Assembly: GCF_964355755.1 (NCBI RefSeq)
Contig: NC_092678.1
Location: 1,387,922 to 1,451,921 of the forward strand
Length of the DNA stretch: 64,000 bases
Direction of reading: 5' to 3'
Source: Antedon mediterranea
Taxonomy: Eukaryota > Echinodermata > Crinoidea > Comatulida > Antedonidae
The position numbers and the translations under genes were made by a program. Below are positions 1 through 22,131 of the stretch, in pieces. Numbering within the stretch: the first letter of the stretch is position 1; every line of letters starts with the position of its first letter. Below the pieces are notes generated by a model that searched no databases, was not told the DNA's origin, and saw only the letters and a list, made by a program, of their open reading frames with translations.

Positions 1-80
1 ATGTTGTTTTATCTTAGAACTTACCATAGGCCTATTTCTCGATGGTTTGTTTTCTATCGATGTTTAAAATACTTTATCGT

Positions 81-152
81 GGCTCGGTGGCCAAGTGGTA
101 AGGCGTCTGTCTCGTAAACAGAAGATCATGGGTTCAAACCCCATTCGGGCCA
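81..152 (+). tRNA. tRNA-Thr (anticodon CGT)
   Basis: Canonical 72-nt cloverleaf. The acceptor GGCTCGG pairs with TCGGGCC, the D stem has 3 bp, and the anticodon stem TCTGT/ACAGA encloses loop CTCGTAA (anticodon CGT, reads ACG). The T arm is ATGGG/CCCAT with loop TTCAAAC. A box and B box are intact, and a T run just downstream can end Pol III transcription. The discriminator base is A here, whereas the array copies have T. Confidence 0.9.
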
Positions 153-235
153 ATTTTTTATGCTGTTAGTGTCAAATAAATTAAATATGTATTTTGATAA
201 TTGTTTGAATTTTTAATATTAGTGTTCTTCGTGGC

Positions 236-307
236 GGCTCGGTGGCCAAGTAGTAATGCGTCTGTCTCGTAAACAGGAGTTCATGGGGTCAAACCCCATT
301 CGGGTGT
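236..307 (+). pseudogene. tRNA-Thr (CGT) pseudogene
   Basis: The CGT anticodon is kept, but T54 is G, G18 is A, and the 3' acceptor end reads TCGGGTG, so the last pairs of the acceptor stem are lost. The B box is also damaged. Probably not charged or processed. Confidence 0.75.
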
Positions 308-419
308 AATTTTTATGCAATTTGTTTTGAAAAATTACCTATTTTAATATTGGTTTATCTTGAAAGTTAAACTTATTTCCCGATGGTTTGATTTATCGAT
401 ATTTAGGTAACTTCAGCAC

Positions 420-491
420 GGCTCGGTGGCCAAGTGGTAAGGCGTCTGTCTCGTAAACAGAAGATCATGGGTTCAAACCCCATTCGGGCCT
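420..491 (+). tRNA. tRNA-Thr (anticodon CGT)
   Basis: Intact cloverleaf with acceptor GGCTCGG and discriminator T, followed by AATTTTT. It is preceded by a spacer of the 'cttcagcac' class that also precedes the copy at 1978. Confidence 0.9.
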
Positions 492-572
492 AATTTTTAT
501 CCCGTTTAGTCAAATAAATTATGTATTTCGATAATATTGTTTAACTTATTAATATTTGCGTCCATTCCTGAC

Positions 573-644
573 GGCTCGGTGGCCAAGTGGTAAGGCGTCT
601 GTCTCGTAAACAGAAGATCATGGGTTCAAACCCCATTCGGGCCT
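573..644 (+). tRNA. tRNA-Thr (anticodon CGT)
   Basis: Same 72-nt sequence as the copy at 420. It sits in the shorter (about 153 bp) spacer class, preceded by 'cattcctgac'. Confidence 0.9.
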
Positions 645-723
645 AATTTTTATGCCGTTTAGTCAAATAGATTATGTATTTCGATAATTGTTTAAATTAT
701 TAATATTTGTGTCCATTCCTGAC

Positions 724-809
724 GGCTCGGTGGCCAAGTGGTAAAGTGCCTGTCTCGTAAAGCGCCTGTCTCGTAAACAGAATCATGGATTCAAACCCCA
801 TTCGGACCT
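724..809 (+). pseudogene. tRNA-Thr pseudogene with duplicated anticodon arm
   Basis: Length is 86 nt instead of 72. The segment around GCCTGTCTCGTAA occurs twice in tandem, giving two anticodon loops in succession. The variable region is shortened and the 3' acceptor is mutated (TTCGGACC). It cannot fold as a normal cloverleaf. Confidence 0.8.
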
Positions 810-885
810 AATTTTTATGCCGTTTAGTCAAATAAATTATGTATTTCGATTGTTTAAATTATTAATATTTGTGTCCATTTCTGAC

Positions 886-957
886 GGCTCGGTGGCCAAG
901 TGGTAAGGCGTCTGTCTCGTAAACAGAAGATCATGGGTTCAAACCCCATTCGGGCCT
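886..957 (+). tRNA. tRNA-Thr (anticodon CGT)
   Basis: Intact copy with acceptor GGCTCGG. It is the last copy before an 836-bp gap without tRNA genes. Confidence 0.9.
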
Positions 958-1793
958 AATTTATGCATTTTTAATTTATTTAATTAATTTAATTGATTAA
1001 TTACATTCATCTATTCTACTACTTTATATTAATTGGTTATTCTTCCAGCAGTTCAAGTTATTGCACTTTCCGATGTAAAACACGCCAATTAGTATTAACA
1101 TTTCACTGCGTACAATTTACTTTACGAATTAACCATCTCCGATGAAAGAATTTTCCATGATTACTTTTCATGCAGGCATAAGAAAAGCGTAAATTTTTCA
1201 CCCACAAATAACTTGCATTGGTCAATCGTAATAGTCAACTCGATGGTCAAATTGATTCAATATTCGAAAGTACTTCATTCTCGTTACGGTCTATCTGGTA
1301 TTCATCCAGTCTGAGAAATCTGAATTGTCCAGAACCAGGCAAGATAATTTCACTCTTCCCTGCTATTAAACGTTTTCATTATTTGGGAATCGCATTATCG
1401 TAAATTCGTTTATTCATTACGGTACCCGTATATACGGTCGAGTATTATCGACATTGCGTGTCTGCTATTCCAACGGGATTACTTAAATTATATTAAATGT
1501 TTAGGCTTATTATCGTTAAAGATGATTCCTCCTGTCTGAGGAACATTATCTATTGTTTTTTAAATTATAATCAGCGTTCATTTGGAGGCATTTGTCTATT
1601 CTCAATTTAGATTGTAATAATCTCTGTTTTGTTTGTTAATGGTAGATTCCCCTTTTCCGCGTCAATGTTTATAATTTGTTTTGAAATAATAAAGACAGTA
1701 ATTATATTTTTTAAATTATTATAATTACCTTAAAGAATTGAAGATATTTAATTTAATTTGCTTTGTTCCATCGTTGATTAAAGTCCTTCCCGC
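958..1793. other. Spacer without tRNA copies
   Basis: AT-rich unique-looking sequence interrupting the tRNA series. I see no tRNA remnant and no convincing coding exon. The 61-codon open frame inside it has no ATG start and no protein-like composition. Confidence 0.6.
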
Positions 1794-1865
1794 GGCTCGG
1801 TGGCCAAGTGGTAAGGCGTCTGTCTCGTAAACAGAAGATCATGGATTCAAACCCCATTCGGGCCT
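1794..1865 (+). tRNA. tRNA-Thr (CGT), G52A variant
   Basis: All arms are present. The T stem reads ATGGA instead of ATGGG next to the loop (G53 changed to A), which weakens the closing pair and the B box. Probably reduced function. Confidence 0.75.
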
Positions 1866-1977
1866 AATTTTTATGCAATTTTTTTTGACAAATTACCTAT
1901 TTTAATATTGGTTTATCTTGAAAGTTAAACTTATTTCTCGATGGCTTGATCTAGCGATATTTGTGTAACTTCAGCAC

Positions 1978-2049
1978 GGCTCGGTGACCAAGTGGTAAGG
2001 CGTCTGTCTCGTAAACAGAAGATCATGGGTTCAAACCCCATTCGGGCCT
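1978..2049 (+). tRNA. tRNA-Thr (CGT), D-stem variant
   Basis: G10 is changed (GGTGACC in place of GGTGGCC), which disturbs the first D-stem pair. Anticodon, T arm and acceptor are otherwise intact. Confidence 0.75.
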
Positions 2050-2164
2050 AATTTTTATGCAATTTGTTTTGACAAATTACCTGTTTTAATATATGGTTTT
2101 ATCTTGAAAGTTAAACTTATTTCTCGATGGCTTGATCTATCGATATTTGAGTAACTTCAAGCAC

Positions 2165-2224
2165 GGCTCGGTGGCCAAGTGGTAAGGCGTCTGTCTCGTA
2201 AACAGAAGATCATGGGTTCAAACA
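2165..2224 (+). pseudogene. 3'-truncated tRNA-Thr (CGT)
   Basis: Acceptor 5' strand, D arm and anticodon arm are intact, but the sequence passes from GTTCAAAC straight into AATTTTT. The 3' half of the T stem and the whole 3' acceptor strand are deleted. Confidence 0.85.
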
Positions 2225-2294
2225 ATTTTTATGCCGTTTAGTCAAATAAATTATGTATTTCGATAAATTATTTATATTTGTGTCCCTTTCTGAC

Positions 2295-2366
2295 GGCTGG
2301 GTGGCCAAGTGGTAAGGCGTCTGTCTCGTAAACAGAAGATCATGGGTTCAAACCCCATTCGGGCCT
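2295..2366 (+). tRNA. tRNA-Thr (CGT), acceptor C5G variant
   Basis: The acceptor starts GGCTGGG, so position 5 faces G68. All other arms match the consensus. One mismatch in the acceptor stem, probably tolerated. Confidence 0.75.
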
Positions 2367-2447
2367 AATTTTTATGCTGTTTTGTCAAATAAATGATGTA
2401 GTCCGATAATTGTTTAAATTATTAATAATTTTGTGTCCCTTCCCGAC

Positions 2448-2519
2448 GGCTCGGTGGCCAAGTGGTAAGGCGTCTGTCTCGTAAACAGAAGATCATGGGT
2501 TCAAACCCCATTCTGGCCT
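2448..2519 (+). tRNA. tRNA-Thr (CGT), acceptor 3' variant
   Basis: The 3' acceptor reads TCTGGCC (G68 to T), opposite C5. This is the last copy with acceptor GGCTCGG; all later copies carry A at position 7. Confidence 0.75.
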
Positions 2520-2617
2520 AACTTTTGGCACTCTGATAAATGTTAGTATTGTTTTTTTGTGAAAGTTAAATTATTTCTCGGTGGTTGGATCTATCGACAT
2601 TTGAGGTCTTACATTCC

Positions 2618-2689
2618 GGCTCGATGGCCAAGTGGTAAGGCGTCTGTCTCGTAAACAGAAGATCATGGGTTCAAACCCCAATCGGGCCT
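2618..2689 (+). tRNA. tRNA-Thr (CGT), T65A
   Basis: First unit of the tight array. The T stem 3' strand ends CCCAA, leaving an A-A mismatch at its base. Confidence 0.8.
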
Positions 2690-2787
2690 AACTTTTGGCA
2701 CTCTGATAAATGTTAGTATTGTTTTTTTGTGAAAGTTAAATTATTCCTCGGTGGTTGGATCTATCAACATTTGAGGTCTTACATCCC

Positions 2788-2859
2788 GGCTCGATGGCCA
2801 AGTGGTAAGGCGTCTGTCTCGTAAACAGAAGATCATGGGTTCAAACCCCATTCGGGCCT
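2788..2859 (+). tRNA. tRNA-Thr (CGT), array consensus
   Basis: Array consensus. It differs from the dispersed copies by A7, which makes a proper A7-T66 pair. Confidence 0.92.
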
Positions 2860-2957
2860 AACTTTTAGCACTCTGATAAATGTTAGTATTGTTTTTTTGT
2901 GAAAGTTAAATTATTCCTCGGTGGTGCGATCTATCAACATTTGAGGTCTTGCATTCC

Positions 2958-3029
2958 GGCTCGATGGCCAAGTGGTAAGGCGTCTGTCTCGTAAACAGAA
3001 GATCATGGGTTCAAACCCCATTCGGGCCT
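2958..3029 (+). tRNA. tRNA-Thr (CGT), array consensus
   Basis: Matches the consensus; proximal, non-block part of the array. Confidence 0.92.
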
Positions 3030-3127
3030 AACTTTTGGCACTCTGATAAATGTTAGTATTGTTTTTTTGTGAAAGTTAAATTATTCCTCGGTGGTTGGAT
3101 CTATCAACATTTGAGGTCTTACATCCC

Positions 3128-3199
3128 GGCTCGATGGCCAAGTGGTAAGGCGTCTGTCTCGTAAACAGAAGATCATGGGTTCAAACCCCAATCGGGCCT
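3128..3199 (+). tRNA. tRNA-Thr (CGT), T65A
   Basis: Same T65A change as the copy at 2618, three units upstream, so the two probably share descent by unit duplication. Confidence 0.8.
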
Positions 3200-3297
3200 A
3201 ACTTTTGGCACTCTGATAAATGTTAGTATTGTTTTTTTGTGAAAGTTAAATTATTCCTCGGTGTTTGGATCTATCAACATTTGAAGTCTTACATCCC

Positions 3298-3369
3298 GGC
3301 TCGATGGCCAAGTGGTAAGGCGTCTGTCTCGTAAACAGAAGATCATGGGTTCAAACCCCATTCGGGCCT
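3298..3369 (+). tRNA. tRNA-Thr (CGT), array consensus
   Basis: Matches the consensus. Confidence 0.92.
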
Positions 3370-3467
3370 AACTTTTGGCACTCTGATAAATGTTAGTATT
3401 GTTTTTTTGTGAAAGTTAAATTATTCCTCGGTGGTTGGATCTATCAACATTTGAGGTCTTACATCCC

Positions 3468-3539
3468 GGCTCGATGGCCAAGTGGTAAGGCGTCTGTCTC
3501 GTAAACAGAAGATCATGGGTTCAAACCCCATTCGGGCCT
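3468..3539 (+). tRNA. tRNA-Thr (CGT), array consensus
   Basis: Matches the consensus. Confidence 0.92.
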
Positions 3540-3637
3540 AACTTTTGGCACTCTGATAAATGTTAGTATTGTTTTTTTGTGAAAGTTAAATTATTCCTCG
3601 GTGGTTGGATCTATCAACATTTGAGGTCTTATATCCC

Positions 3638-3709
3638 GGCTCGATGGCCAAGTGGTAAGGCGTCTGTCTCGTAAACAGAAGATCATGGGTTCTAACCCCA
3701 TTAGGGCCT
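3638..3709 (+). tRNA. tRNA-Thr (CGT), T-loop and acceptor variant
   Basis: The T loop is TTCTAAC (position 57 A to T, inside the B box) and acceptor C67 is A, facing G6. Two private changes; likely weak or inactive. Confidence 0.6.
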
Positions 3710-3807
3710 AACTTTTAGCACTCTGATAAATGTTAGTATTGTTTTTTTGTGAAAGTTAAATTATTCCTCGGTGGTGCGATCTATCAACATTTGAGGTCTT
3801 ACATTCC

Positions 3808-3879
3808 GGCTCGATGGCCAAGTGGTAAGGCGTCTCTCTCGTAAACAGAAGATCATGGGTTCAAACCCCATTCGGGCCT
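3808..3879 (+). tRNA. tRNA-Thr (CGT), G30C
   Basis: The anticodon stem reads TCTCT/ACAGA, giving a C-C mismatch at 30-40. The spacer after it has the long T run that marks block slot 4. Confidence 0.65.
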
Positions 3880-3978
3880 AACTTTTGGCACTCTGATAAA
3901 TGTTAGTTTTTTTTTTTTTATGAAAATTAAATTATTCCTCGGTGTTTGGATTTATCAACATTTGAAGTCTTACATCCC

Positions 3979-4050
3979 GGCTCGATGGCCAAGTGGTAAG
4001 GCGTCTGTCTCGTAAACAGAAGATCATGGGTTCAAACCCCATTCGGGCCT
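3979..4050 (+). tRNA. tRNA-Thr (CGT), array consensus
   Basis: Matches the consensus; corresponds to slot 5 of the 7-unit block. Confidence 0.92.
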
Positions 4051-4148
4051 AACTTTTGGCACTCTGATAAATGTTAGTATTGTTTTTTTGTGAAAGTTAA
4101 AATATTCCTCGGTGGTGCGATCTATCAACATTTGAGGTCTTACATTCC

Positions 4149-4220
4149 GGCTCGATGGCCAAGTGGTAAGGCGTCTGTCTCGTAAACAGAAGATCATGGG
4201 TTCAAACCCCATTCGGGCCT
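4149..4220 (+). tRNA. tRNA-Thr (CGT), array consensus
   Basis: Matches the consensus; slot 6 type. Confidence 0.92.
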
Positions 4221-4318
4221 AACTTTTGGCACTCTGATAAATGTTAGTATTGTTTTTTTGTGAAAGTTAAATTATTCCTCGGTGGCTGGATCTATGAACA
4301 TTTGAGGTCTTACATCCC

Positions 4319-4390
4319 GGCTCGATGGCCAAGTGGTAAGGCGTCTGTCTCGTAAACAGAAGATCATGGGTTCAAACCCCATTCGGGCCT
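4319..4390 (+). tRNA. tRNA-Thr (CGT), array consensus
   Basis: Matches the consensus; slot 7 type, with the spacer 'ggctggatctatgaac' before it. Confidence 0.92.
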
Positions 4391-4488
4391 AACTTTTGGC
4401 ACTCTGATAAATGTTAGTATTGTTTTTTTGTGAAAGTTAAATTATTCCTCGGTGGTGCGATCTATCATCATGTGAGGTCTTACATTCC

Positions 4489-4560
4489 GGCTCGAAGGCC
4501 AAGTGGTAAGGCGTCTGTCTCGTAAACAGAAGATCATGGGTTCAAACCCCATTCGGGCCT
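4489..4560 (+). tRNA. tRNA-Thr (CGT), U8A variant
   Basis: Position 8 is A (CTCGAAGGCC). U8 is almost universal because it makes the U8-A14 tertiary pair, and it is the first base of the A box. Starts a 6-unit block (4489-5509) that equals the 7-unit block without slot 3. Confidence 0.65.
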
Positions 4561-4658
4561 AACTTTTGGCACTCTGATAAATGTTAGTATTGTTTTTTTG
4601 TGAAAGTTAAATTATTTCTCGGTGGTTGCATCTATCAACATTTGAGGTCTTACATCCC

Positions 4659-4730
4659 GGCTCGATGGCCAAGTGGTAAGGCGTCTGTCTCCTAAACAGA
4701 AGATCATGTTTTCAAACCCCATTCGGGCCT
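4659..4730 (+). tRNA. tRNA-Thr body with anticodon CCT
   Basis: The loop is CTCCTAA, so the anticodon is CCT (reads AGG, Arg) on a threonine tRNA body. The T stem is ATGTT, with both G52 and G53 changed to T, which breaks the B box. The most damaged of the six CCT copies. Confidence 0.65.
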
Positions 4731-4828
4731 AACTTTTGGCACTCTGATAAATGTTAGTATTGTTTTTTTGTGAAAGTTAAATTATTCCTCGGTGGTGCGA
4801 TCTATCAACATTTGAGGTCTTACATTCC

Positions 4829-4900
4829 GGCTCGATGGCCAAGTGGTAAGGCGTCTGTCTCGTAAACAGAAGATCATGGGTTCAAACCCCATTCGGGCCT
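4829..4900 (+). tRNA. tRNA-Thr (CGT), array consensus
   Basis: Matches the consensus; slot 4 type, followed by the long T run. Confidence 0.92.
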
Positions 4901-4999
4901 AACTTTTGGCACTCTGATAAATGTTAGTTTTTTTTTTTTTATGAAAGTTAAATTATTCCTCGGTGTTTGGATTTATCAACATTTGAAGTCTTACATCCC

Positions 5000-5071
5000 G
5001 GCTCGATGGCCAAGTGGTAAGGCGTCTGTCTCGTAAACAGAAGATCATGGGTTCAAACCCCATTCGGGCCT
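5000..5071 (+). tRNA. tRNA-Thr (CGT), array consensus
   Basis: Matches the consensus; slot 5 type. Confidence 0.92.
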
Positions 5072-5169
5072 AACTTTTGGCACTCTGATAAATGTTAGTA
5101 TTGTTTTTTTGTGAAAGTTAAATTATTCCTCGGTGGTGCGATCTATCAACATTTGAGGTCTTACATTCC

Positions 5170-5241
5170 GGCTCGATGGCCAAGTGGTAAGGCGTCTGTC
5201 TCGTAAACAGAAGATCATGGGTTCAAACCCCATTCGGGCCT
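5170..5241 (+). tRNA. tRNA-Thr (CGT), array consensus
   Basis: Matches the consensus; slot 6 type. Confidence 0.92.
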
Positions 5242-5339
5242 AACTTTTGGCACTCTGATAAATGTTAGTATTGTTTTTTTATGAAAGTTAAATTATTCCT
5301 CGGTGGCTGGATCTATGAACATTTGAGGTCTTACATCCC

Positions 5340-5411
5340 GGCTCGATGGCCAAGTGGTAAGGCGTCTGTCTCGTAAACAGAAGATCATGGGTTCAAACCC
5401 CATTCGGGCCT
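5340..5411 (+). tRNA. tRNA-Thr (CGT), array consensus
   Basis: Matches the consensus; slot 7 type, but without the C11T found at 6532 and 9259. Confidence 0.92.
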
Positions 5412-5509
5412 AACTTTTGGCACTCTGATAAATGTTAGTATTGTTTTTTTGTGAAAGTTAAATTATTCCTCGGTGGTGCGATCTATCATCATTTGAGGTC
5501 TTACATTCC

Positions 5510-5581
5510 GGCTCGAAGGCCAAGTGGTAAGGCGTCTGTCTCGTAAACAGAAGATCATGGGTTCAAACCCCATTCGGGCCT
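5510..5581 (+). tRNA. tRNA-Thr (CGT), U8A variant
   Basis: Position 8 is A. Slot 1 of the first full 7-unit block (5510-6701). Confidence 0.65.
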
Positions 5582-5680
5582 AACTTTTGGCACTCTGATA
5601 AATGTTAGTATTGTTTTTTTATTGAAAGTTAAATTATTTCTCGGTGGTTGGATCTATCAACATTTGAGGTCTTACATCCC

Positions 5681-5752
5681 GGCTCGATGGCCAAGTGGTA
5701 AGGCGTCTGTCTCCTAAACAGAAGATCATGGTTTCAAACCCCATTCGGGCCT
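5681..5752 (+). tRNA. tRNA-Thr body with anticodon CCT
   Basis: Anticodon CCT plus G53T (T stem ATGGT). Slot 2 of the first 7-unit block. Confidence 0.65.
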
Positions 5753-5850
5753 AACTTTTGGCACTCTGATAAATGTTAGTATTGTTTTTTTGTGAAAGTT
5801 AATTTATTCCTCGGTGGTTAGATCTATCAACATTTGAGGTGTTACATCCC

Positions 5851-5922
5851 GGCTCGATGGCCAAGTGGTAAGGCGTCTGTCTCGTAAACAGAAGATCATG
5901 GGTTCAAACCCCATTCGGGCCT
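5851..5922 (+). tRNA. tRNA-Thr (CGT), array consensus
   Basis: Matches the consensus; slot 3, preceded by the diagnostic spacer 'gaggtgttacatccc'. Confidence 0.92.
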
Positions 5923-6021
5923 AACTTTTAGCACTCTGATAAATGTTAGTATTGTTTTTTTTGTGAAAGTTAAATTATTCCTCGGTGGTGCGATCTATCA
6001 ACATTTGAGGTCTTACATTCC

Positions 6022-6093
6022 GGCTCGATGGCCAAGTGGTAAGGCGTCTGTCTCGTAAACAGAAGATCATGGGTTCAAACCCCATTCGGGCCT
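6022..6093 (+). tRNA. tRNA-Thr (CGT), array consensus
   Basis: Matches the consensus; slot 4. The trailer reads GACTTTT rather than AACTTTT. Confidence 0.92.
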
Positions 6094-6191
6094 GACTTTT
6101 GGCACTCTGATAAATGTTAGTTTTTTTTTTTTATGAAAGTTAAATTATTCCTCGGTGTTTGGATTTATCAACATTTGAAGTCTTACATCCC

Positions 6192-6263
6192 GGCTCGATG
6201 GCCAAGTGGTAAGGCGTCTGTCTCGTAAACAGAAGATCATGGGTTCAAACCCCATTCGGGCCT
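6192..6263 (+). tRNA. tRNA-Thr (CGT), array consensus
   Basis: Matches the consensus; slot 5. Confidence 0.92.
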
Positions 6264-6361
6264 AACTTTTGGCACTCTGATAAATGTTAGTATTGTTTTT
6301 TTGTGAAAGTTAAATTATTCCTCGGTGGTGCGATCTATCAACATTTGAGGTCTTACATTCC

Positions 6362-6433
6362 GGCTCGATGGCCAAGTGGTAAGGCGTCTGTCTCGTAAAC
6401 AGAAGATCATGGGTTCAAACCCCATTCGGGCCT
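6362..6433 (+). tRNA. tRNA-Thr (CGT), array consensus
   Basis: Matches the consensus; slot 6. Confidence 0.92.
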
Positions 6434-6531
6434 AACTTTTGGCACTCTGATAAATGTTAGTATTGTTTTTTTATGAAAGTTAAATTATTCCTCGGTGGCT
6501 GGATCTATGAACATTTGAGGTCTTACATCCC

Positions 6532-6603
6532 GGCTCGATGGTCAAGTGGTAAGGCGTCTGTCTCGTAAACAGAAGATCATGGGTTCAAACCCCATTCGGG
6601 CCT
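6532..6603 (+). tRNA. tRNA-Thr (CGT), C11T
   Basis: The D stem has T11 facing G24, a tolerated wobble. Slot 7; same change as the copy at 9259. Confidence 0.85.
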
Positions 6604-6701
6604 AACTTTTGGCACTCTGATAAATGTTAGTATTGTTTTTTTGTGAAAGTTAAATTATTCCTCGGTGGTGCGATCTATCATCATTTGAGGTCTTACATTC
6701 C

Positions 6702-6773
6702 GGCTCGAAGGCCAAGTGGTAAGGCGTCTGTCTCGTAAACAGAAGATCATGGGTTCAAACCCCATTCGGGCCT
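6702..6773 (+). tRNA. tRNA-Thr (CGT), U8A variant
   Basis: Position 8 is A. First unit of the 9-unit block 6702-8237. Confidence 0.65.
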
Positions 6774-6871
6774 AACTTTTGGCACTCTGATAAATGTTAG
6801 TATTGTTTTTTTGTGAAAGTTAAATTATTTCTCGGTGGTTGGATCTATCAACATTTGAGGTCTTACATCCC

Positions 6872-6943
6872 GGCTCGATGGCCAAGTGGTAAGGCGTCTG
6901 TCTCCTAAACAGAAGATCATGGTTTCAAACCCCATTCGGGCCT
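6872..6943 (+). tRNA. tRNA-Thr body with anticodon CCT
   Basis: Anticodon CCT plus G53T; slot 2 of the 9-unit block. Confidence 0.65.
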
Positions 6944-7041
6944 AACTTTTGGCACTCTGATAAATGTTAGTATTGTTTTTTTGTGAAAGTTAATTTATTC
7001 CTCGGTGGTTAGATCTATCAACATTTGAGGTGTTACATCCC

Positions 7042-7113
7042 GGCTCGATGGCCAAGTGGTAAGGCGTCTGTCTCGTAAACAGAAGATCATGGGTTCAAAC
7101 CCCATTCGGGCCT
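7042..7113 (+). tRNA. tRNA-Thr (CGT), array consensus
   Basis: Matches the consensus; slot 3 of the 9-unit block. Confidence 0.92.
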
Positions 7114-7212
7114 AACTTTTAGCACTCTGATAAATGTTAGTATTGTTTTTTTTGTGAAAGTTAAATTATTCCTCGGTGGTGCGATCTATCAACATTTGAG
7201 GTCTTACATTCC

Positions 7213-7284
7213 GGCTCGATGGCCAAGTGGTAAGGCGTCTGTCTCGTAAACAGAAGATCATGGGTTCAAACCCCATTCGGGCCT
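7213..7284 (+). tRNA. tRNA-Thr (CGT), array consensus
   Basis: Matches the consensus; slot 4. The T run after it is the short type, unlike slot 4 of the 7-unit block. Confidence 0.92.
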
Positions 7285-7382
7285 GACTTTTGGCACTCTG
7301 ATAAATGTTAGTATTGTTTTTTTATGAAAGTTAAATTATTCCTCAGTGTTTGGATCTATCAACATTTGAAGTCTTACATCCC

Positions 7383-7454
7383 GGCTCGATGGACAAGTGG
7401 TAAGGCGTCTGTCTCGTAAACAGAAGATCATGGGTTCAAACCCCATTCGGGCCT
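7383..7454 (+). tRNA. tRNA-Thr (CGT), C11A
   Basis: The D stem has A11 facing G24, a mismatch inside the A box. Slot 5 of the 9-unit block; repeated at 10110. Confidence 0.65.
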
Positions 7455-7557
7455 AACTTTTGGCACTCTGATAAATGTTAGTATTGTTTTTTTATGATAG
7501 TTAAATTATTATATTTCTCGGTGGTGCGATCTATCAACATTTGAGGTCTTACGTTCC

Positions 7558-7629
7558 GGCTCGATGGCCAAGTGGTAAGGCGTCTGTCTCGTAAACAGAA
7601 GATCATGGTTTCAAACCCCATTCGGGCCT
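7558..7629 (+). tRNA. tRNA-Thr (CGT), G53T
   Basis: T stem ATGGT with the normal CGT anticodon. The spacer before it has about 5 extra bases (unit of 175 bp). Slot 6; repeated at 10285. Confidence 0.65.
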
Positions 7630-7727
7630 AACTTTTGGCACTCTGATAAATGTTAGTATTGTTTTTTTATGAAAGTTAAATTATTCCTCGGTGGTTGGCT
7701 CTATCAACATTTGAGGTCTTACATTCC

Positions 7728-7799
7728 GGCTCGATGGCCAAGTGGTAAGGCGTCTGTCTCGTAAACAGAAGATCATGGGTTCAAACCCCATTCGGGCCT
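7728..7799 (+). tRNA. tRNA-Thr (CGT), array consensus
   Basis: Matches the consensus; slot 7 of the 9-unit block. Confidence 0.92.
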
Positions 7800-7897
7800 G
7801 ACTTTTGGCACTCTGATAAATGTTAGTATTGTTTTTTTATGAAAATTAAATTATTTCTCGGTGGTGCGATCTATCAACATTTGAGGTCTTACATTCC

Positions 7898-7969
7898 GGC
7901 TCGATGGCCAAGTAGTAAGGCGTCTGTCTCGTAAACAGAAGATCATGGGTTCAAACCCCATTCGGGCCT
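7898..7969 (+). tRNA. tRNA-Thr (CGT), G18A
   Basis: The D loop reads GTAGTAA, so G18 (partner of U55) is A. This change is private: the duplicate at 10625 has the normal G. Confidence 0.65.
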
Positions 7970-8067
7970 AACTTTTGGCACTCTGATAAATGTTAGTATT
8001 GTTTTTTTATGAAAGTTAAATTATTCCTCGGTGGCTGGATCTATGAACATTTGAGGTCTTACATCCC

Positions 8068-8139
8068 GGCTCGATGGCCAAGTGGTAAGGCGTCTGTCTC
8101 GTAAACAGAAGATCATGGGTTCAAACCCCATTCGGGCCT
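8068..8139 (+). tRNA. tRNA-Thr (CGT), array consensus
   Basis: Matches the consensus; last unit of the 9-unit block. Confidence 0.92.
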
Positions 8140-8237
8140 AACTTTTGGCACTCTGATAAATGTTAGTATTGTTTTTTTGTGAAAGTTAAATTATTCCTCG
8201 GTGGTGCGATCTATCATCATTTGAGGTCTTACATTCC

Positions 8238-8309
8238 GGCTCGAAGGCCAAGTGGTAAGGCGTCTGTCTCGTAAACAGAAGATCATGGGTTCAAACCCCA
8301 TTCGGGCCT
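8238..8309 (+). tRNA. tRNA-Thr (CGT), U8A variant
   Basis: Position 8 is A; slot 1 of the second 7-unit block (8238-9428). Confidence 0.65.
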
Positions 8310-8407
8310 AACTTTTGGCACTCTGATAAATGTTAGTATTGTTTTTTTGTGAAAGTTAAATTATTTCTCGGTGGTTGGATCTATCAACATTTGAGGTCTT
8401 ACATCCC

Positions 8408-8479
8408 GGCTCGATGGCCAAGTGGTAAGGCGTCTGTCTCCTAAACAGAAGATCATGGTTTCAAACCCCATTCGGGCCT
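8408..8479 (+). tRNA. tRNA-Thr body with anticodon CCT
   Basis: Anticodon CCT plus G53T; slot 2 of the second 7-unit block. Confidence 0.65.
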
Positions 8480-8577
8480 AACTTTTGGCACTCTGATAAA
8501 TGTTAGTATTGTTTTTTTGTGAAAGTTAATTTATTCCTCGGTGGTTAGATCTATCAACATTTGAGGTGTTACATCCC

Positions 8578-8649
8578 GGCTCGATGGCCAAGTGGTAAGG
8601 CGTCTGTCTCGTAAACAGAAGATCATGGGTTCAAACCCCATTCGGGCCT
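8578..8649 (+). tRNA. tRNA-Thr (CGT), array consensus
   Basis: Matches the consensus; slot 3. Confidence 0.92.
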
Positions 8650-8748
8650 AACTTTTAGCACTCTGATAAATGTTAGTATTGTTTTTTTTGTGAAAGTTAA
8701 ATTATTCCTCGGTGGTGCGATCTATCAACATTTGAGGTCTTACATTCC

Positions 8749-8820
8749 GGCTCGATGGCCAAGTGGTAAGGCGTCTGTCTCGTAAACAGAAGATCATGGG
8801 TTCAAACCCCATTCGGGCCT
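8749..8820 (+). tRNA. tRNA-Thr (CGT), array consensus
   Basis: Matches the consensus; slot 4, long T run follows. Confidence 0.92.
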
Positions 8821-8918
8821 GACTTTTGGCACTCTGATAAATGTTAGTTTTTTTTTTTTATGAAAGTTAAATTATTCCTCGGTGTTTGGATTTATCAACA
8901 TTTGAAGTCTTACATCCC

Positions 8919-8990
8919 GGCTCGATGGCCAAGTGGTAAGGCGTCTGTCTCGTAAACAGAAGATCATGGGTTCAAACCCCATTCGGGCCT
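8919..8990 (+). tRNA. tRNA-Thr (CGT), array consensus
   Basis: Matches the consensus; slot 5. Confidence 0.92.
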
Positions 8991-9088
8991 AACTTTTGGC
9001 ACTCTGATAAATGTTAGTATTGTTTTTTTGTGAAAGTTAAATTATTCCTCGGTGGTGCGATCTATCAACATTTGAGGTCTTACATTCC

Positions 9089-9160
9089 GGCTCGATGGCC
9101 AAGTGGTAAGGCGTCTGTCTCGTAAACAGAAGATCATGGGTTCAAACCCCATTCGGGCCT
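9089..9160 (+). tRNA. tRNA-Thr (CGT), array consensus
   Basis: Matches the consensus; slot 6. Confidence 0.92.
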
Positions 9161-9258
9161 AACTTTTGGCACTCTGATAAATGTTAGTATTGTTTTTTTA
9201 TGAAAGTTAAATTATTCCTCGGTGGCTGGATCTATGAACATTTGAGGTCTTACATCCC

Positions 9259-9330
9259 GGCTCGATGGTCAAGTGGTAAGGCGTCTGTCTCGTAAACAGA
9301 AGATCATGGGTTCAAACCCCATTCGGGCCT
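9259..9330 (+). tRNA. tRNA-Thr (CGT), C11T
   Basis: T11-G24 wobble in the D stem; slot 7, shared with 6532. Confidence 0.85.
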
Positions 9331-9428
9331 AACTTTTGGCACTCTGATAAATGTTAGTATTGTTTTTTTGTGAAAGTTAAATTATTCCTCGGTGGTGCGA
9401 TCTATCATCATTTGAGGTCTTACATTCC

Positions 9429-9500
9429 GGCTCGAAGGCCAAGTGGTAAGGCGTCTGTCTCGTAAACAGAAGATCATGGGTTCAAACCCCATTCGGGCCT
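9429..9500 (+). tRNA. tRNA-Thr (CGT), U8A variant
   Basis: Position 8 is A; starts the second 9-unit block (9429-10964). Confidence 0.65.
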
Positions 9501-9598
9501 AACTTTTGGCACTCTGATAAATGTTAGTATTGTTTTTTTGTGAAAGTTAAATTATTTCTCGGTGGTTGGATCTATCAACATTTGAGGTCTTACATCCC

Positions 9599-9670
9599 GG
9601 CTCGATGGCCAAGTGGTAAGGCGTCTGTCTCCTAAACAGAAGATCATGGTTTCAAACCCCATTCGGGCCT
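9599..9670 (+). tRNA. tRNA-Thr body with anticodon CCT
   Basis: Anticodon CCT plus G53T; duplicate of 6872. Confidence 0.65.
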
Positions 9671-9768
9671 AACTTTTGGCACTCTGATAAATGTTAGTAT
9701 TGTTTTTTTGTGAAAGTTAATTTATTCCTCGGTGGTTAGATCTATCAACATTTGAGGTGTTACATCCC

Positions 9769-9840
9769 GGCTCGATGGCCAAGTGGTAAGGCGTCTGTCT
9801 CGTAAACAGAAGATCATGGGTTCAAACCCCATTCGGGCCT
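9769..9840 (+). tRNA. tRNA-Thr (CGT), array consensus
   Basis: Matches the consensus; duplicate of 7042. Confidence 0.92.
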
Positions 9841-9939
9841 AACTTTTAGCACTCTGATAAATGTTAGTATTGTTTTTTTTGTGAAAGTTAAATTATTCCT
9901 CGGTGGTGCGATCTATCAACATTTGAGGTCTTACATTCC

Positions 9940-10011
9940 GGCTCGATGGCCAAGTGGTAAGGCGTCTGTCTCGTAAACAGAAGATCATGGGTTCAAACCC
10001 CATTCGGGCCT
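9940..10011 (+). tRNA. tRNA-Thr (CGT), array consensus
   Basis: Matches the consensus; duplicate of 7213. Confidence 0.92.
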
Positions 10012-10109
10012 GACTTTTGGCACTCTGATAAATGTTAGTATTGTTTTTTTATGAAAGTTAAATTATTCCTCAGTGTTTGGATCTATCAACATTTGAAGTC
10101 TTACATCCC

Positions 10110-10181
10110 GGCTCGATGGACAAGTGGTAAGGCGTCTGTCTCGTAAACAGAAGATCATGGGTTCAAACCCCATTCGGGCCT
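10110..10181 (+). tRNA. tRNA-Thr (CGT), C11A
   Basis: A11-G24 mismatch in the D stem; duplicate of 7383. Confidence 0.65.
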
Positions 10182-10284
10182 AACTTTTGGCACTCTGATA
10201 AATGTTAGTATTGTTTTTTTATGATAGTTAAATTATTATATTTCTCGGTGGTGCGATCTATCAACATTTGAGGTCTTACGTTCC

Positions 10285-10356
10285 GGCTCGATGGCCAAGT
10301 GGTAAGGCGTCTGTCTCGTAAACAGAAGATCATGGTTTCAAACCCCATTCGGGCCT
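10285..10356 (+). tRNA. tRNA-Thr (CGT), G53T
   Basis: T stem ATGGT with CGT anticodon; duplicate of 7558, including the 175-bp unit before it. Confidence 0.65.
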
Positions 10357-10454
10357 AACTTTTGGCACTCTGATAAATGTTAGTATTGTTTTTTTATGAA
10401 AGTTAAATTATTCCTCGGTGGTTGGCTCTATCAACATTTGAGGTCTTACATTCC

Positions 10455-10526
10455 GGCTCGATGGCCAAGTGGTAAGGCGTCTGTCTCGTAAACAGAAGAT
10501 CATGGGTTCAAACCCCATTCGGGCCT
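10455..10526 (+). tRNA. tRNA-Thr (CGT), array consensus
   Basis: Matches the consensus; duplicate of 7728. Confidence 0.92.
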
Positions 10527-10624
10527 GACTTTTGGCACTCTGATAAATGTTAGTATTGTTTTTTTATGAAAATTAAATTATTTCTCGGTGGTGCGATCTA
10601 TCAACATTTGAGGTCTTACATTCC

Positions 10625-10696
10625 GGCTCGATGGCCAAGTGGTAAGGCGTCTGTCTCGTAAACAGAAGATCATGGGTTCAAACCCCATTCGGGCCT
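10625..10696 (+). tRNA. tRNA-Thr (CGT), array consensus
   Basis: Matches the consensus. Its duplicate at 7898 carries G18A, so that change arose after the block duplication. Confidence 0.92.
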
Positions 10697-10794
10697 AACT
10701 TTTGGCACTCTGATAAATGTTAGTATTGTTTTTTTATGAAAGTTAAATTATTCCTCGGTGGCTGGATCTATGAACATTTGAGGTCTTACATCCC

Positions 10795-10866
10795 GGCTCG
10801 ATGGCCAAGTGGTAAGGCGTCTGTCTCGTAAACAGAAGATCATGGGTTCAAACCCCATTCGGGCCT
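10795..10866 (+). tRNA. tRNA-Thr (CGT), array consensus
   Basis: Matches the consensus; duplicate of 8068. Confidence 0.92.
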
Positions 10867-10964
10867 AACTTTTGGCACTCTGATAAATGTTAGTATTGTT
10901 TTTTTGTGAAAGTTAAATTATTCCTCGGTGGTGCGATCTATCATCATTTGAGGTCTTACATTCC

Positions 10965-11036
10965 GGCTCGAAGGCCAAGTGGTAAGGCGTCTGTCTCGTA
11001 AACAGAAGATCATGGGTTCAAACCCCATTCGGGCCT
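10965..11036 (+). tRNA. tRNA-Thr (CGT), U8A variant
   Basis: Position 8 is A; slot 1 of the third 7-unit block (10965-12155). Confidence 0.65.
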
Positions 11037-11134
11037 AACTTTTGGCACTCTGATAAATGTTAGTATTGTTTTTTTGTGAAAGTTAAATTATTTCTCGGTG
11101 GTTGGATCTATCAACATTTGAGGTCTTACATCCC

Positions 11135-11206
11135 GGCTCGATGGCCAAGTGGTAAGGCGTCTGTCTCCTAAACAGAAGATCATGGTTTCAAACCCCATTC
11201 GGGCCT
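11135..11206 (+). tRNA. tRNA-Thr body with anticodon CCT
   Basis: Anticodon CCT plus G53T; the sixth and last CCT copy. Confidence 0.65.
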
Positions 11207-11304
11207 AACTTTTGGCACTCTGATAAATGTTAGTATTGTTTTTTTGTGAAAGTTAATTTATTCCTCGGTGGTTAGATCTATCAACATTTGAGGTGTTACA
11301 TCCC

Positions 11305-11376
11305 GGCTCGATGGCCAAGTGGTAAGGCGTCTGTCTCGTAAACAGAAGATCATGGGTTCAAACCCCATTCGGGCCT
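11305..11376 (+). tRNA. tRNA-Thr (CGT), array consensus
   Basis: Matches the consensus; slot 3. Confidence 0.92.
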
Positions 11377-11475
11377 AACTTTTAGCACTCTGATAAATGT
11401 TAGTATTGTTTTTTTTGTGAAAGTTAAATTATTCCTCGGTGGTGCGATCTATCAACATTTGAGGTCTTACATTCC

Positions 11476-11547
11476 GGCTCGATGGCCAAGTGGTAAGGCG
11501 TCTGTCTCGTAAACAGAAGATCATGGGTTCAAACCCCATTCGGGCCT
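11476..11547 (+). tRNA. tRNA-Thr (CGT), array consensus
   Basis: Matches the consensus; slot 4. Confidence 0.92.
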
Positions 11548-11645
11548 GACTTTTGGCACTCTGATAAATGTTAGTTTTTTTTTTTTATGAAAGTTAAATT
11601 ATTCCTCGGTGTTTGGATTTATCAACATTTGAAGTCTTACATCCC

Positions 11646-11717
11646 GGCTCGATGGCCAAGTGGTAAGGCGTCTGTCTCGTAAACAGAAGATCATGGGTTC
11701 AAACCCCATTCGGGCCT
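11646..11717 (+). tRNA. tRNA-Thr (CGT), array consensus
   Basis: Matches the consensus; slot 5. Confidence 0.92.
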
Positions 11718-11815
11718 AACTTTTGGCACTCTGATAAATGTTAGTATTGTTTTTTTGTGAAAGTTAAATTATTCCTCGGTGGTGCGATCTATCAACATTT
11801 GAGGTCTTACATTCC

Positions 11816-11887
11816 GGCTCGATGGCCAAGTGGTAAGGCGTCTGTCTCGTAAACAGAAGATCATGGGTTCAAACCCCATTCGGGCCT
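11816..11887 (+). tRNA. tRNA-Thr (CGT), array consensus
   Basis: Matches the consensus; slot 6. Confidence 0.92.
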
Positions 11888-11985
11888 AACTTTTGGCACT
11901 CTGATAAATGTTAGTATTGTTTTTTTATGAAAGTTAAATTATTCCTCGGTGGCTGGATCTATGAACATTTGAGGTCTTACATCCC

Positions 11986-12057
11986 GGCTCGATGGCCAAG
12001 TGGTAAGGCGTCTGTCTCGTAAACAGAAGATCATGGGTTCAAACCCCATTCGGGCCT
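11986..12057 (+). tRNA. tRNA-Thr (CGT), array consensus
   Basis: Matches the consensus; slot 7 without the C11T seen in the two earlier 7-unit blocks. Confidence 0.92.
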
Positions 12058-12155
12058 AACTTTTGGCACTCTGATAAATGTTAGTATTGTTTTTTTGTGA
12101 AAGTTAAATTATTCCTCGGTGGTGCGATCTATCATCATTTGAGGTCTTACATTCC

Positions 12156-12227
12156 GGCTCGAAGGCCAAGTGGTAAGGCGTCTGTCTCGTAAACAGAAGA
12201 TCATGGGTTCAAACCCCATTCGGGCCT
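12156..12227 (+). tRNA. tRNA-Thr (CGT), U8A variant
   Basis: Position 8 is A. The only array U8A copy not followed by a CCT copy, so the block pattern ends here. Confidence 0.65.
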
Positions 12228-12325
12228 AACTTTTGGCACTCTGATAAATGTTAGTATTGTTTTTTTATGAAAGTTAAATTATTCCTCGGTGGTGCGATCT
12301 ATCAACATTTGAGGTCTTACATCCC

Positions 12326-12397
12326 GGCTCAATGGCCAAGTGGTAAGGCGTCTGTCTCGTAAACAGAAGATCATGGGTTCAAACCCCATTCGGGCCT
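12326..12397 (+). tRNA. tRNA-Thr (CGT), G6A
   Basis: Acceptor GGCTCAA, giving an A6-C67 mismatch. Confidence 0.7.
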
Positions 12398-12495
12398 AAC
12401 TTTTGGCACTCTGATAAATGTTAGTATTGTTTTTTTATGAAAGTTAAATTATTCCTCGGTGGTTGGATCTATCAACATTTGAGGTCTTACATTCT

Positions 12496-12567
12496 GGCTC
12501 GATGGCCAAGTGGTAAGGCGTCTGTCTCGTAAACAGAAGATCATGGGTTCAAACCCCATTCGGGCCT
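12496..12567 (+). tRNA. tRNA-Thr (CGT), array consensus
   Basis: Matches the consensus; the base before position 1 is T rather than C. Confidence 0.92.
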
Positions 12568-12665
12568 GACTTTTGGCACTCTGATAAATGTTAGTATTGT
12601 TTTTTTATGAAAGTTAAATTATTTCTCGGTGGTGCGATCTATCAACATTTGAGGTCTTACGTTCC

Positions 12666-12737
12666 GGCTCGATGGCCAAGTGGTAAGGCGTCTGTCTCGT
12701 AAACAGAAGATCATGGTTTCAAACCCCATTCGGGCCT
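12666..12737 (+). tRNA. tRNA-Thr (CGT), G53T
   Basis: T stem ATGGT with CGT anticodon; relative of 7558 and 10285. Confidence 0.65.
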
Positions 12738-12835
12738 AACTTTTGGCACTCTGATAAATGTTAGTATTGTTTTTTTGTGAAAGTTAAATTATTCCTCGGT
12801 GGTGCCATCTATCAACATTTGAGGTCTTACATTCC

Positions 12836-12907
12836 GGCTCGATGGCCAAGTGGTAAGGCGTCTGTCTCGTAAACAGAAGATCATGGGTTCAAACCCCATT
12901 CGGGCCT
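12836..12907 (+). tRNA. tRNA-Thr (CGT), array consensus
   Basis: Matches the consensus; last complete copy. Confidence 0.92.
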
Positions 12908-12972
12908 AACTTTTGGCACTCTGATAAATGTTAGTATTGTTTTTTTATGAAAGTTAAATTATTCCTCGGTGG

Positions 12973-13009
12973 AAACAGAAGATCATGGGTTCAAACCCCA
13001 TTCGGGCCT
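12973..13009 (+). pseudogene. 3' half of tRNA-Thr at array end
   Basis: Positions 37 to 73 of the tRNA (half of the anticodon arm, T arm, 3' acceptor) are fused directly to the spacer motif CTCGGTGG. That motif also resembles the 5' end of the dispersed tRNA copies, so a deletion across this short homology is likely. Unique sequence follows. Confidence 0.85.
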
Positions 13010-14640
13010 GATGTCGATTATGCGTTGAATCTATTGTTTGATCTATCAATCTATAGATTTTCATCATCAATTTATTGTTTAAAAAGCAGTTTTTTTGTAT
13101 CAAAAAGGGTACGCGCACGCAACCTCTGGTTATCCTGTCGCCAATTGCCTCCGTTACACTGCATGTTTACTTTTTTAATGTGGCCGATTCAGTCTGCAAA
13201 TTGCAGTCAATTGCCTCATATTTAGTGTTCGTTAAATTGGAATTACTTTCCTGTGACGTCAGCTAGAGCCTTATGAAGACTAATTAGGCGGTTAAAATAC
13301 GTTTATTGTTCCTGTGAATAATGAATCATGATTTTGAATCTAAAATCCACATGAAAATGTATATCTGAAGGCCATGCGCTAGATTTGAAGTGGGTTGTGA
13401 TGGGGATGGGATGAGACGCGGGAATATGGGTTATAAGTGTACCTGTGATAGTAGGCCTACCATAGCAACTAGTAGGCCTACCATAGCAACTAGTTTATGG
13501 GATTATAATAACAATAAAATATACAATGAATACACCATACAACGTTATAATGCTTGCTTTCCACTTGAACGCAACGACGTGGGCGCAACTCAGTATCTTT
13601 GATCACAAGCGATAGTTCAATAGCGTCGTGATTGGTCAAATTACTTGCGATGCGCTTACGTCCTCAGTGCGCAAGTAGAAACAAATGCAAAGTGCATGTG
13701 TATAACTTACATGCGCAACAGCTATCCTTTGTAGTACAGTACATGATATACATATAAAAATGGGATGGTGATTTGTTCAATAGAATAGGAGAGATGAGGA
13801 TGGATAGTAGGCCTAGCTACCGTAGGGCTATATTTTTTCCAAACTATCGCGATACTAATATGCGTTCACTACCGTATGTGAATTATCGCGTAGTCAAACC
13901 ATTGACACAATGCCAGTAACGTGAAAATTGTCTACATCTGGGGTGGAGGAGGGTGCGCGGTTATAAACGCTTGTTGTAGCGATTGATAAGATACGGATAG
14001 CGAGATCAGATATTCCATTACTATCAATGTCATGATTCAACGTAAAAATTGAAGAACGTAAAAAAAAAAACTACCCCAAGCCTTTTAAAGATGTGAGTAT
14101 TGTTGATACATTACATTTTAAGTACCATAATGTGTCATTTTCCTCAACATTGTCATGTTGTAACTATTTTAGATATTAATAAAAATATTTATCACATAAT
14201 ACTTAAATGTCATTTTTAGCTTTGTTATTAATCCGTAGGTTTTAAATTTGTCATTTAGATGTTCGATAGATCTTTAGGCTTAATTTCTTAATTCTAAACG
14301 TATCCTTTTGAGTGCCACTAGATCACATTACGATCAACATAAATTTACTATTTTCAGTGAATATTGTAACCTCTATCTGTCCGTTTCTAAAAATATATGC
14401 ATTACAGACACATTTATAGTATTAAGAGTATCTGTAATAAGCCCTCGTTTAGGCTCTGCTAAGTGGCTAGGCCAATTGTCTATGATTAGTCTTTGTAGAA
14501 GGTTCATTGTTCGTCATTCGCCCGGTTCCTAAACCACGGCTTAGTAAACAACTTGAGATATATTTTCTTCAAACAGTTTCAGCAACTAGCTGGAAAATAA
14601 CTTTTTTATTTAAAATGCAGTTTCTTTATTTATTTAGGGT
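13010..14640. other. Intergenic region after the tRNA array
   Basis: No convincing coding exon. It contains a tandem pair of a 21-bp motif at about 13451-13492 and a decayed MITE (separate entry). The short open frames here lack conserved features. Confidence 0.6.
13553..13672. mobile_element. Decayed family-A MITE
   Basis: Imperfect inverted repeat containing 'gatcacaagcgata' and 'gtgattggtcaaattact', flanked by ends like 'gcttacgtcct'. It resembles the complete family-A element at 15261, much diverged. Confidence 0.5.
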
Positions 14641-19726: not shown

Positions 19727-19969
19727 CAATACTTTATTACGCTTCTTCAGACTTTTTCATCGGGTAAATATTTCAATAACAGTTTGACATTTTAATTAAA
19801 GTGATGTAGAGTATGTCAATTTGTTGTACCAAGTATCTTCCGATACATTTTTAAAATAACATTCTATTTAATCATCTGGGATTTGCTACTTCATGTATTA
19901 TTTTGATAGCGATGGTATTCCTCGCTTGATATAATGTCATTATATCAATAGCATTCATCATTTTCTTGG

Positions 19970-22084: not shown

Positions 22085-22131
22085 CAGAATAATATACTTA
22101 ATTAACCAACATTGTCTTTTTGCAATCCCAG

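Follow-up and report, generated by a model that had tools for sequence, protein, structure and literature searches.

A uniform tandem array of tRNA-Thr(CGT) genes in the crinoid Antedon mediterranea, one of several tRNA arrays in its genome

Why should an animal genome carry some sixty copies of one threonine tRNA gene in a single row? The question is raised by the left end of a 64,000-nucleotide stretch of DNA from the crinoid Antedon mediterranea (NCBI RefSeq assembly GCF_964355755.1, contig NC_092678.1, positions 1,387,922 to 1,451,921 of the forward strand), the whole of which was analysed and is called the window below. Three tektin fragments from the genome, compared with PDB sequences, indicate that it probably belongs to an echinoderm or a close relative: two are closest to entry 8snb, from sea urchin sperm (290 versus 156 bits and 176 versus 138 bits relative to mammalian tektins, one of the two with 68.8% identity over 189 columns), whereas the third is closest to mammalian Tektin-3 (208 bits, versus 121 bits for 8snb). 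A first-pass annotation, made from the letters of the sequence, had described an array of tRNA-Thr(CGT) genes there and had considered it striking. The block of about 62 nearly identical Thr tRNA genes, arranged head to tail, is confirmed as real. It is long, uniform and nearly confined to one isoacceptor, as had been claimed, but it is not exceptional, since most of the tRNA families examined in this animal live in tandem arrays. The Thr-CGT array is one case of a genome-wide habit, clean and uniform, and no oddity.

Structure and growth of the array

ARAGORN predicts 69 tRNA genes in the whole window, all on the plus strand and all within positions 80-12907, with the Thr anticodon CGT in 63 and the anticodon CCT in six. 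Sixty-one of these genes, again all on the plus strand, follow one another at a spacing of about 170 bp in 2618-12907 (55 CGT, 6 CCT), and Tandem Repeats Finder (TRF) reports one array at 2447-12972 with a period of 170, 61.8 copies, 95% matches and a score of 19084. Both programs agree with the 61 head-to-tail genes at about 170 bp that the first-pass annotation had placed in 2618-12907, and its count of 35 identical copies was recounted as 35. Its assignment of the array to a single tRNA-Thr(CGT) gene holds for 55 of the 61 genes but fails for the six with the anticodon CCT. Judged by spacer type, the array starts further left, at 2448, which gives 62 units and a broken half unit. This first unit had been counted among 11 upstream copies, the other ten of which, at 81-2295, are indeed separate from the array and older. 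As delimited by TRF, ARAGORN and a listing of its units, the array spans 2448-12972 on the plus strand and comprises 62 units of 170-175 bp, each with a 72-nt Thr tRNA and a spacer of about 98 bp, the last one cut short. At the right edge (12836-13014, plus strand; unit listing), the last full tRNA is followed by the truncated final unit, which breaks off at about 12972 and is fused to a tRNA 3′ half.

A run of T residues is the usual stop signal for RNA polymerase III (Pol III), and the A box and B box are its internal promoter motifs. Four T residues in a row start three bases past the gene in all 62 units, and the common copy (35/62) carries TGGCCAAGTGG as its A box and GGTTCAAACCC as its B box, as a Pol III gene should. 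The Rfam tRNA model (RF00005) has 71 matches in window positions 1-14000, and these matches are far above chance: the commonest 72-nt tRNA, identical to the letter in its 35 copies, scores 69.6 bits, while five CCT copies score 62.7 bits and the sixth scores 53.1 bits. Together with the cloverleaf bearing the Thr anticodon CGT that ARAGORN draws for 63 of the 69 genes in the window, the Rfam score identifies the common copy as a nuclear tRNA-Thr(CGU) gene. Consecutive tRNA genes lie less than 1000 nt apart throughout the 62 units, and the array thus falls under the 1-kb cluster rule given in a passage of Bermudez-Santana et al. (2010, PMC2888827).

Likeness between units records how the array grew. 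Mean identity is 98.0% for units 16 places apart (21/45 pairs identical), every other lag between 1 and 30 gives 95.2-96.7%, and identical pairs number 9/54 at lag 7 and 7/52 at lag 9. Two adjoining blocks of 16 units and 2,727 bp each, at 5681-8407 and 8408-11134 on the plus strand, differ by one mismatch in 2,727 bases. The near-identity of these blocks and the peak at lag 16 indicate recent unequal exchange. Among the 61 units that were aligned, with the cut-off last unit left out, 32 are distinct, and pairwise diversity (π) is higher in the spacer (0.054) than in the tRNA (0.015).

The copies with a CCT anticodon follow this higher-order repeat. The one at 4659-4730 (plus strand, 53.1 bits; unit listing and Rfam) also carries G51T and G52T, the one at 5681-5752 (plus strand, 62.7 bits; ARAGORN and Rfam) carries G52T, and units like the latter start at 6872, 8408, 9599 and 11135. 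This pattern shows that anticodon variants were multiplied by unequal exchange. Counted linearly, the G52T change affects what is, by our count, standard position G53, in the T stem and B box, and it is present in 9/62 units, six of which have the CCT anticodon and three of which keep CGT. Since the T-stem change occurs by itself in these three, CCT probably arose in a copy that was already decaying. Another change, T8A (U8 to A, in the A box), occurs in 7/62 units.

The older block and the solitary genes

An older block of ten irregularly spaced Thr(CGT) units, with an acceptor stem that mostly reads GGCTCGG, lies to the left of the array at 81-2366 (plus strand; ARAGORN and Rfam). Its units start at 81, 236, 420, 573, 724, 886, 1794, 1978, 2165 and 2295. 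Three score 66.2 bits with the Rfam tRNA model and three are broken, namely those at 236 (35.6 bits), at 2165 (32.7 bits) and at 724, which was missed by ARAGORN and Rfam; two further tRNAs directly left of the window score 66.2 and 48.8 bits. The array gene matches the older genes at 70-71 of 72 positions in the six of ten that were compared. Position 7 is A in the common array gene and G in most older genes, which, as the acceptor stem is read here, would replace a G-U pair by A-U. The Thr gene seems to have been kept at this locus over a longer time while the spacers diverged.

Copies elsewhere in the genome were sought with a 35-base core pattern, allowing up to two mismatches, over 354 Mb in 18 contigs (labelled C1, C2 and so on below), with a reversed pattern as control. 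There were 75 matches versus none in the control, 72 of them at the locus itself (C9:1387638-1400803). The three outside it, viewed in 4.1-kb pieces, are intact solitary genes of 66.2, 67.5 and 69.5 bits. The solitary gene at C9:22.36 Mb is identical at 72/72 positions to one older-block gene and matches the array gene at 71/72; for both C2 genes the agreement with the array gene is 66/72.

Arrays of other tRNA families and codon demand

Eleven tRNA families were examined and arrays were found in nine: Thr-CGT, Thr AGT/TGT, Lys-TTT, Lys-CTT, Cys-GCA, Ile-AAT, initiator Met, Gly-GCC and Glu. Four of these (Lys-TTT, Lys-CTT, Cys-GCA and Ile-AAT) form a biased sample, as they surfaced by their high rank in tRNA searches. 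The fair figure is therefore that of the six typed animal tRNA probes, four of which revealed large arrays, one a small cluster (Arg-CCT) and one no array (Thr-TGT). The first-pass annotation had set its view against the case in which all tRNA families of this genome have equally large arrays; that case largely obtains, in 4/6 typed probes, although not for every family.

Searches with the typed probes gave the following picture. The Thr-AGT probe has 282 matches, and among the 150 matches listed, 148 fall in C4:34.561-34.623 Mb, with a single one in the opposite orientation; this Thr AGT/TGT array extends over about 62 kb compared with 10.5 kb for the Thr-CGT array. A classic Thr-TGT probe gave nine matches and no array in the whole genome. 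For initiator Met, all but five of 146 matches fall in C11:15.183-15.200 Mb and C1:37.160-37.164 Mb, where ARAGORN assigns 23/28 genes to Met in the C11 piece and 16/16 in the C1 piece. For Gly-GCC, all but ten of 104 matches fall in C7:9.932-9.961 Mb, and all genes called by ARAGORN in a piece of this array are GCC (24/24). The best 40 of 149 candidates for Glu gave 40 matches, 38 of which are in C10:14.304-14.366 Mb; 11 of the 17 genes in the C10 piece are Glu (5 CTC, 6 TTC) by ARAGORN. At C10:14340001-14346000, a repeat of about 425 bp includes, on the opposite strand, another tRNA-like gene of 88 nt, to which ARAGORN gave no definite anticodon. The Glu array is thus not of one kind. The Arg-CCT probe has 23 matches and led to a C4 cluster in which 10/14 genes are CCT, along with a few others; ordinary Arg-CCT genes of up to 68.3 bits lie at C4:3.31 Mb. 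Matches to vault RNA adjoin the Arg-CCT cluster at 3236-3367 and 4265-4395 of the piece (43.5 and 38.6 bits), and one Arg-like copy in the cluster has the anticodon CTA.

When the whole genome was searched with the tRNA model, the best 63 of 35,763 candidates gave 62 matches, with 58 on C8 and two each on C2 and C3. On C8, 45 Lys-TTT genes lie at 23.650-23.660 Mb and 26 genes, one of them CTT, at 23.670-23.680 Mb, while three pieces further left hold one, two and one tRNA genes. On C2, 93 of 101 genes over two adjoining pieces are Cys-GCA and eight have other anticodons. The Lys-CTT array on C3 (22/25 genes CTT) is smaller than the Thr-CGT array. The Ile-AAT array on C1 was reached with a T-arm motif that has 1825 matches in the genome versus six in the reversed control; two neighbouring pieces of it contain 33 and 36 genes, each with the anticodon AAT. 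Among the first 100 T-arm matches, 83 on C1 are not part of the Ile array; almost all of these stand singly and scattered, and many read GGGTTCAAGTCCC; these sites are possibly a tRNA-derived dispersed repeat.

Compared to the other arrays, which were sampled as pieces, the Thr-CGT array is the most uniform, with 13 distinct sequences in 62 ARAGORN genes and the commonest present 35 times. The corresponding numbers are 9/24 for Gly, 14/25 for Lys-CTT, 17/36 and 18/33 for Ile, 28/45 and 22/26 for Lys-TTT, 19/28 and 11/16 for initiator Met, 11/17 for the Glu piece, 33/42 and 47/59 for Cys, and 38/54 for Thr AGT/TGT. The top uniformity of the Thr-CGT array fits recent growth.

Demand from a rare codon was considered as the cause of the array. 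Codon use was counted in 14 of 148 matches to G protein-coupled receptors (GPCRs), taken as single-exon genes with the longest open frame from the first ATG, a small sample of one gene family. In these 14 frames ACG accounts for 101 of 438 Thr codons (23%), next to 175 ACA, 104 ACT and 58 ACC. The description of the anticodon as a rare type does not agree with this share, and rare-codon demand was rejected as unsupported in the sample.

Anticodon variants are also present in other arrays. In C4:34595001-34605000, the 54 genes of the Thr array comprise 32 TGT, 21 AGT and one GGT. The best TGT copies score in the range of 68-73 bits (for example, 72.6, 69.8 and 69.7 bits), compared with 70.1 bits for AGT. 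Because their scores equal those of AGT copies, some of these TGT copies may work. Three of 25 copies in the Lys-CTT piece (1906, 4225 and 5752) carry a TTA anticodon, expected to pair with the stop codon UAA, and score 53.3-56.9 versus 67.4 bits. Three CAC and two AAT copies are found among the 28 genes of the C11 initiator Met piece (376, 821, 3614, 4061 and 4355); the CAC copies score 46.5-47.5 bits and the AAT copies 55.9, with a commonest score of 57.1.

Such variants raise the idea of arrays as a nursery, in which changes arise in redundant copies, are spread by higher-order repeats and in some cases give rise to functional genes with a changed decoding. Shifts of anticodon from one tRNA family to another have been documented, as stated in part of PMC3923123. 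If the idea were right, the C4 AGT/TGT array would exemplify the working kind and would serve ACA, the most frequent Thr codon of the GPCR sample; the CCT copies in the window, along with the Lys TTA and the initiator CAC copies, would either not work or be at an early stage. We consider it rather improbable.

Origin and role of the array

With moderate confidence, the array is read as a set of real Pol III tRNA genes, multiplied by unequal exchange, that comes in addition to a base set of dispersed genes. Its source would be one gene and its spacer from the older small block at the same locus, to judge by their likeness, and this unit would have been amplified head to tail. Growth has since proceeded by unequal exchange, and its latest step, visible in the sequence, was the duplication of the 16-unit, 2,727-bp block. 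Because of the A and B boxes in the common copy and the T4 run in every unit, we infer that Pol III would transcribe the units one by one, adding to the tRNA-Thr(CGU) pool beyond the three solitary genes. Some copies decay, and the decay (U8 to A, G53 to U, CCT) is duplicated along with the block. A burst of demand in oogenesis or the early embryo, by analogy with the oocyte-type arrays of Xenopus, is our best guess as to why the copies may have been retained. Such an arrangement would amount to a two-tier tRNA supply, in which an array is accompanied by separate solitary genes, the latter present for all three Thr anticodons. As the array and the solitary Thr genes differ in sequence, a two-tier supply is directly testable by tRNA sequencing.

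Several observations weigh against this account. The tRNA differs from the common one in 27/62 units, and seven of these differ within the A box. Variable sites make up 13/72 positions of the tRNA and 29/106 of the spacer, shares that do not differ significantly (Fisher p 0.21), and so no claim of purifying selection on single array copies is made. In a permissive global alignment, the array spacer was no more similar to six older spacers than shuffled controls were, and the string shared by the older units 1794 and 1978 and the array (GAAAGTTAAA, then TTATTTCTCG) was recognised by eye only. Furthermore, the precise number of copies depends on the assembly, and drift could produce the array.

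The array could alternatively be a tRNA-derived satellite, a passive and mostly silent repeat grown by unequal exchange, with the solitary genes doing the work. The amplification of decayed copies along with good ones points that way, as do the more degenerate state of other arrays (38/54 distinct in Thr AGT/TGT, 33/42 and 47/59 in Cys), the existence of intact Thr-CGT, Thr-AGT and Thr-TGT genes that are solitary or dispersed, the site counts without a sign of selection on single copies and, as described in part of PMC12308677, silent tandem tRNA gene clusters. However, one intact sequence is found in 35/62 units, T4 was kept in every unit, and the six older genes compared remain at 70-71/72 while their spacers diverged; we therefore regard a satellite as possible but unlikely. 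That the six CCT copies form a new tRNA, which would read AGG and be charged with Arg or Thr, is hardly credible. Five of them share one sequence and recur with the higher-order repeat, but all six have the G53U change in the T stem and B box and score 62.7 or 53.1 versus 69.6 bits, the three CGT copies with G53U alone suggest that decay probably came earlier, and the ordinary Arg-CCT genes at C4:3.31 Mb are at hand.

Inflation of the copy number by misassembled repeat reads would account for two adjoining 2,727-bp blocks that are one base apart. It is very improbable, as the array is only 10.5 kb long, has other sequence on both flanks and contains no N, like the window as a whole, and as 32/61 aligned units are distinct. 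A role as a chromatin boundary or insulator, in which tRNA genes bound by TFIIIC divide domains, finds its parallel in the variable number tandem repeat of tRNA genes at human 1q23.3, likewise head to tail, which according to passages of PMC4041453 binds CTCF at a domain boundary. The human unit, however, measures about 7.3 kb and combines five tRNA genes with a conserved CTCF motif, compared with the 170-bp unit here, and no pointer to a boundary was seen in the sequence, in which CTCF motifs were not looked for; such a role seems most doubtful. A tRNA-derived short interspersed element was rejected, since 72 of the 75 core matches lie head to tail at one locus and T4 comes right after the gene, with no body or tail.

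In Xenopus, the tandem tRNA unit is 3.18 kb long and contains several genes, and solitary isodecoders of the same acceptor are separate. Xenopus and Antedon are thus alike in having tandem tRNA genes in an animal, and the two C2 genes and the gene at C9:22.36 Mb are solitary isodecoders of this type, but each unit here has one gene of one family. The Xenopus tandem genes are oocyte-specific and activated at zygotic genome activation, as reported in part of PMC11500080, and by analogy they are the closest functional precedent for the array read as working Pol III genes. For a silent array, the nearest parallel is the Ser-Tyr-Tyr (SYY) cluster of Arabidopsis, which exists side by side with dispersed genes and is silenced in most tissues (passages of PMC12308677). 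The SYY and tRNA-Cys clusters of Arabidopsis resemble the present case as tandem expansions of tRNA genes, with SYY linked to dispersed genes, but differ in their units, which are Ser-Tyr-Tyr or a 0.4-kbp Cys unit of four genes (PMC12308677 and PMC10701932, both in part).

Large tRNA clusters are already known, and the Thr-CGT array adds another example. As had been stated in the first-pass annotation, tRNA arrays exist in some eukaryotes. In passages of their paper, Bermudez-Santana et al. (2010, PMC2888827) described clusters in Nematostella and teleosts with fifty or more members, which, like those here, consist of parallel genes within 1 kb, and tRNA arrays are said there to have emerged many times in eukaryotes; the legend of their Fig. 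4 mentions a cluster that includes copies of Thr (AGT or TGT). According to the same passages, tRNA pairs are mostly homogeneous in drosophilids, Monosiga and Tetrahymena but mostly heterogeneous in Nematostella, frog and zebrafish, whereas most arrays sampled here are of one family. Entamoeba shares the habit of tandem tRNA arrays throughout the genome but has up to five tRNA genes per unit, microsatellite-like spacers and more than 10% of the genome in such arrays (PMC2652664, in part). An array of the Entamoeba type was rejected for the window, as each unit has one tRNA and TRF gives only the 170-bp period across the array. In the part of the published work on echinoderm tRNA arrays and on tRNA arrays generally that was covered, no report of the present array was found, and the words tandem and cluster are absent from the main text of the sea cucumber tRNA paper PMC8580430.

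Elsewhere in the window, a 42-bp tandem repeat of 47 copies (99%) at 19969-21944 has open frames of 707 and 666 codons, one on each strand. Neighbouring genes of the TMEM26 family (Pfam PF09772) lie on the plus strand at 22059-25057 and 30581-32908, with scores of 203.7 and 193.6 bits for their larger open frames. Two adjacent arrays, built of 28-29 bp repeats whose cores are almost the same, are located at 50147-51340 and 51827-52509.

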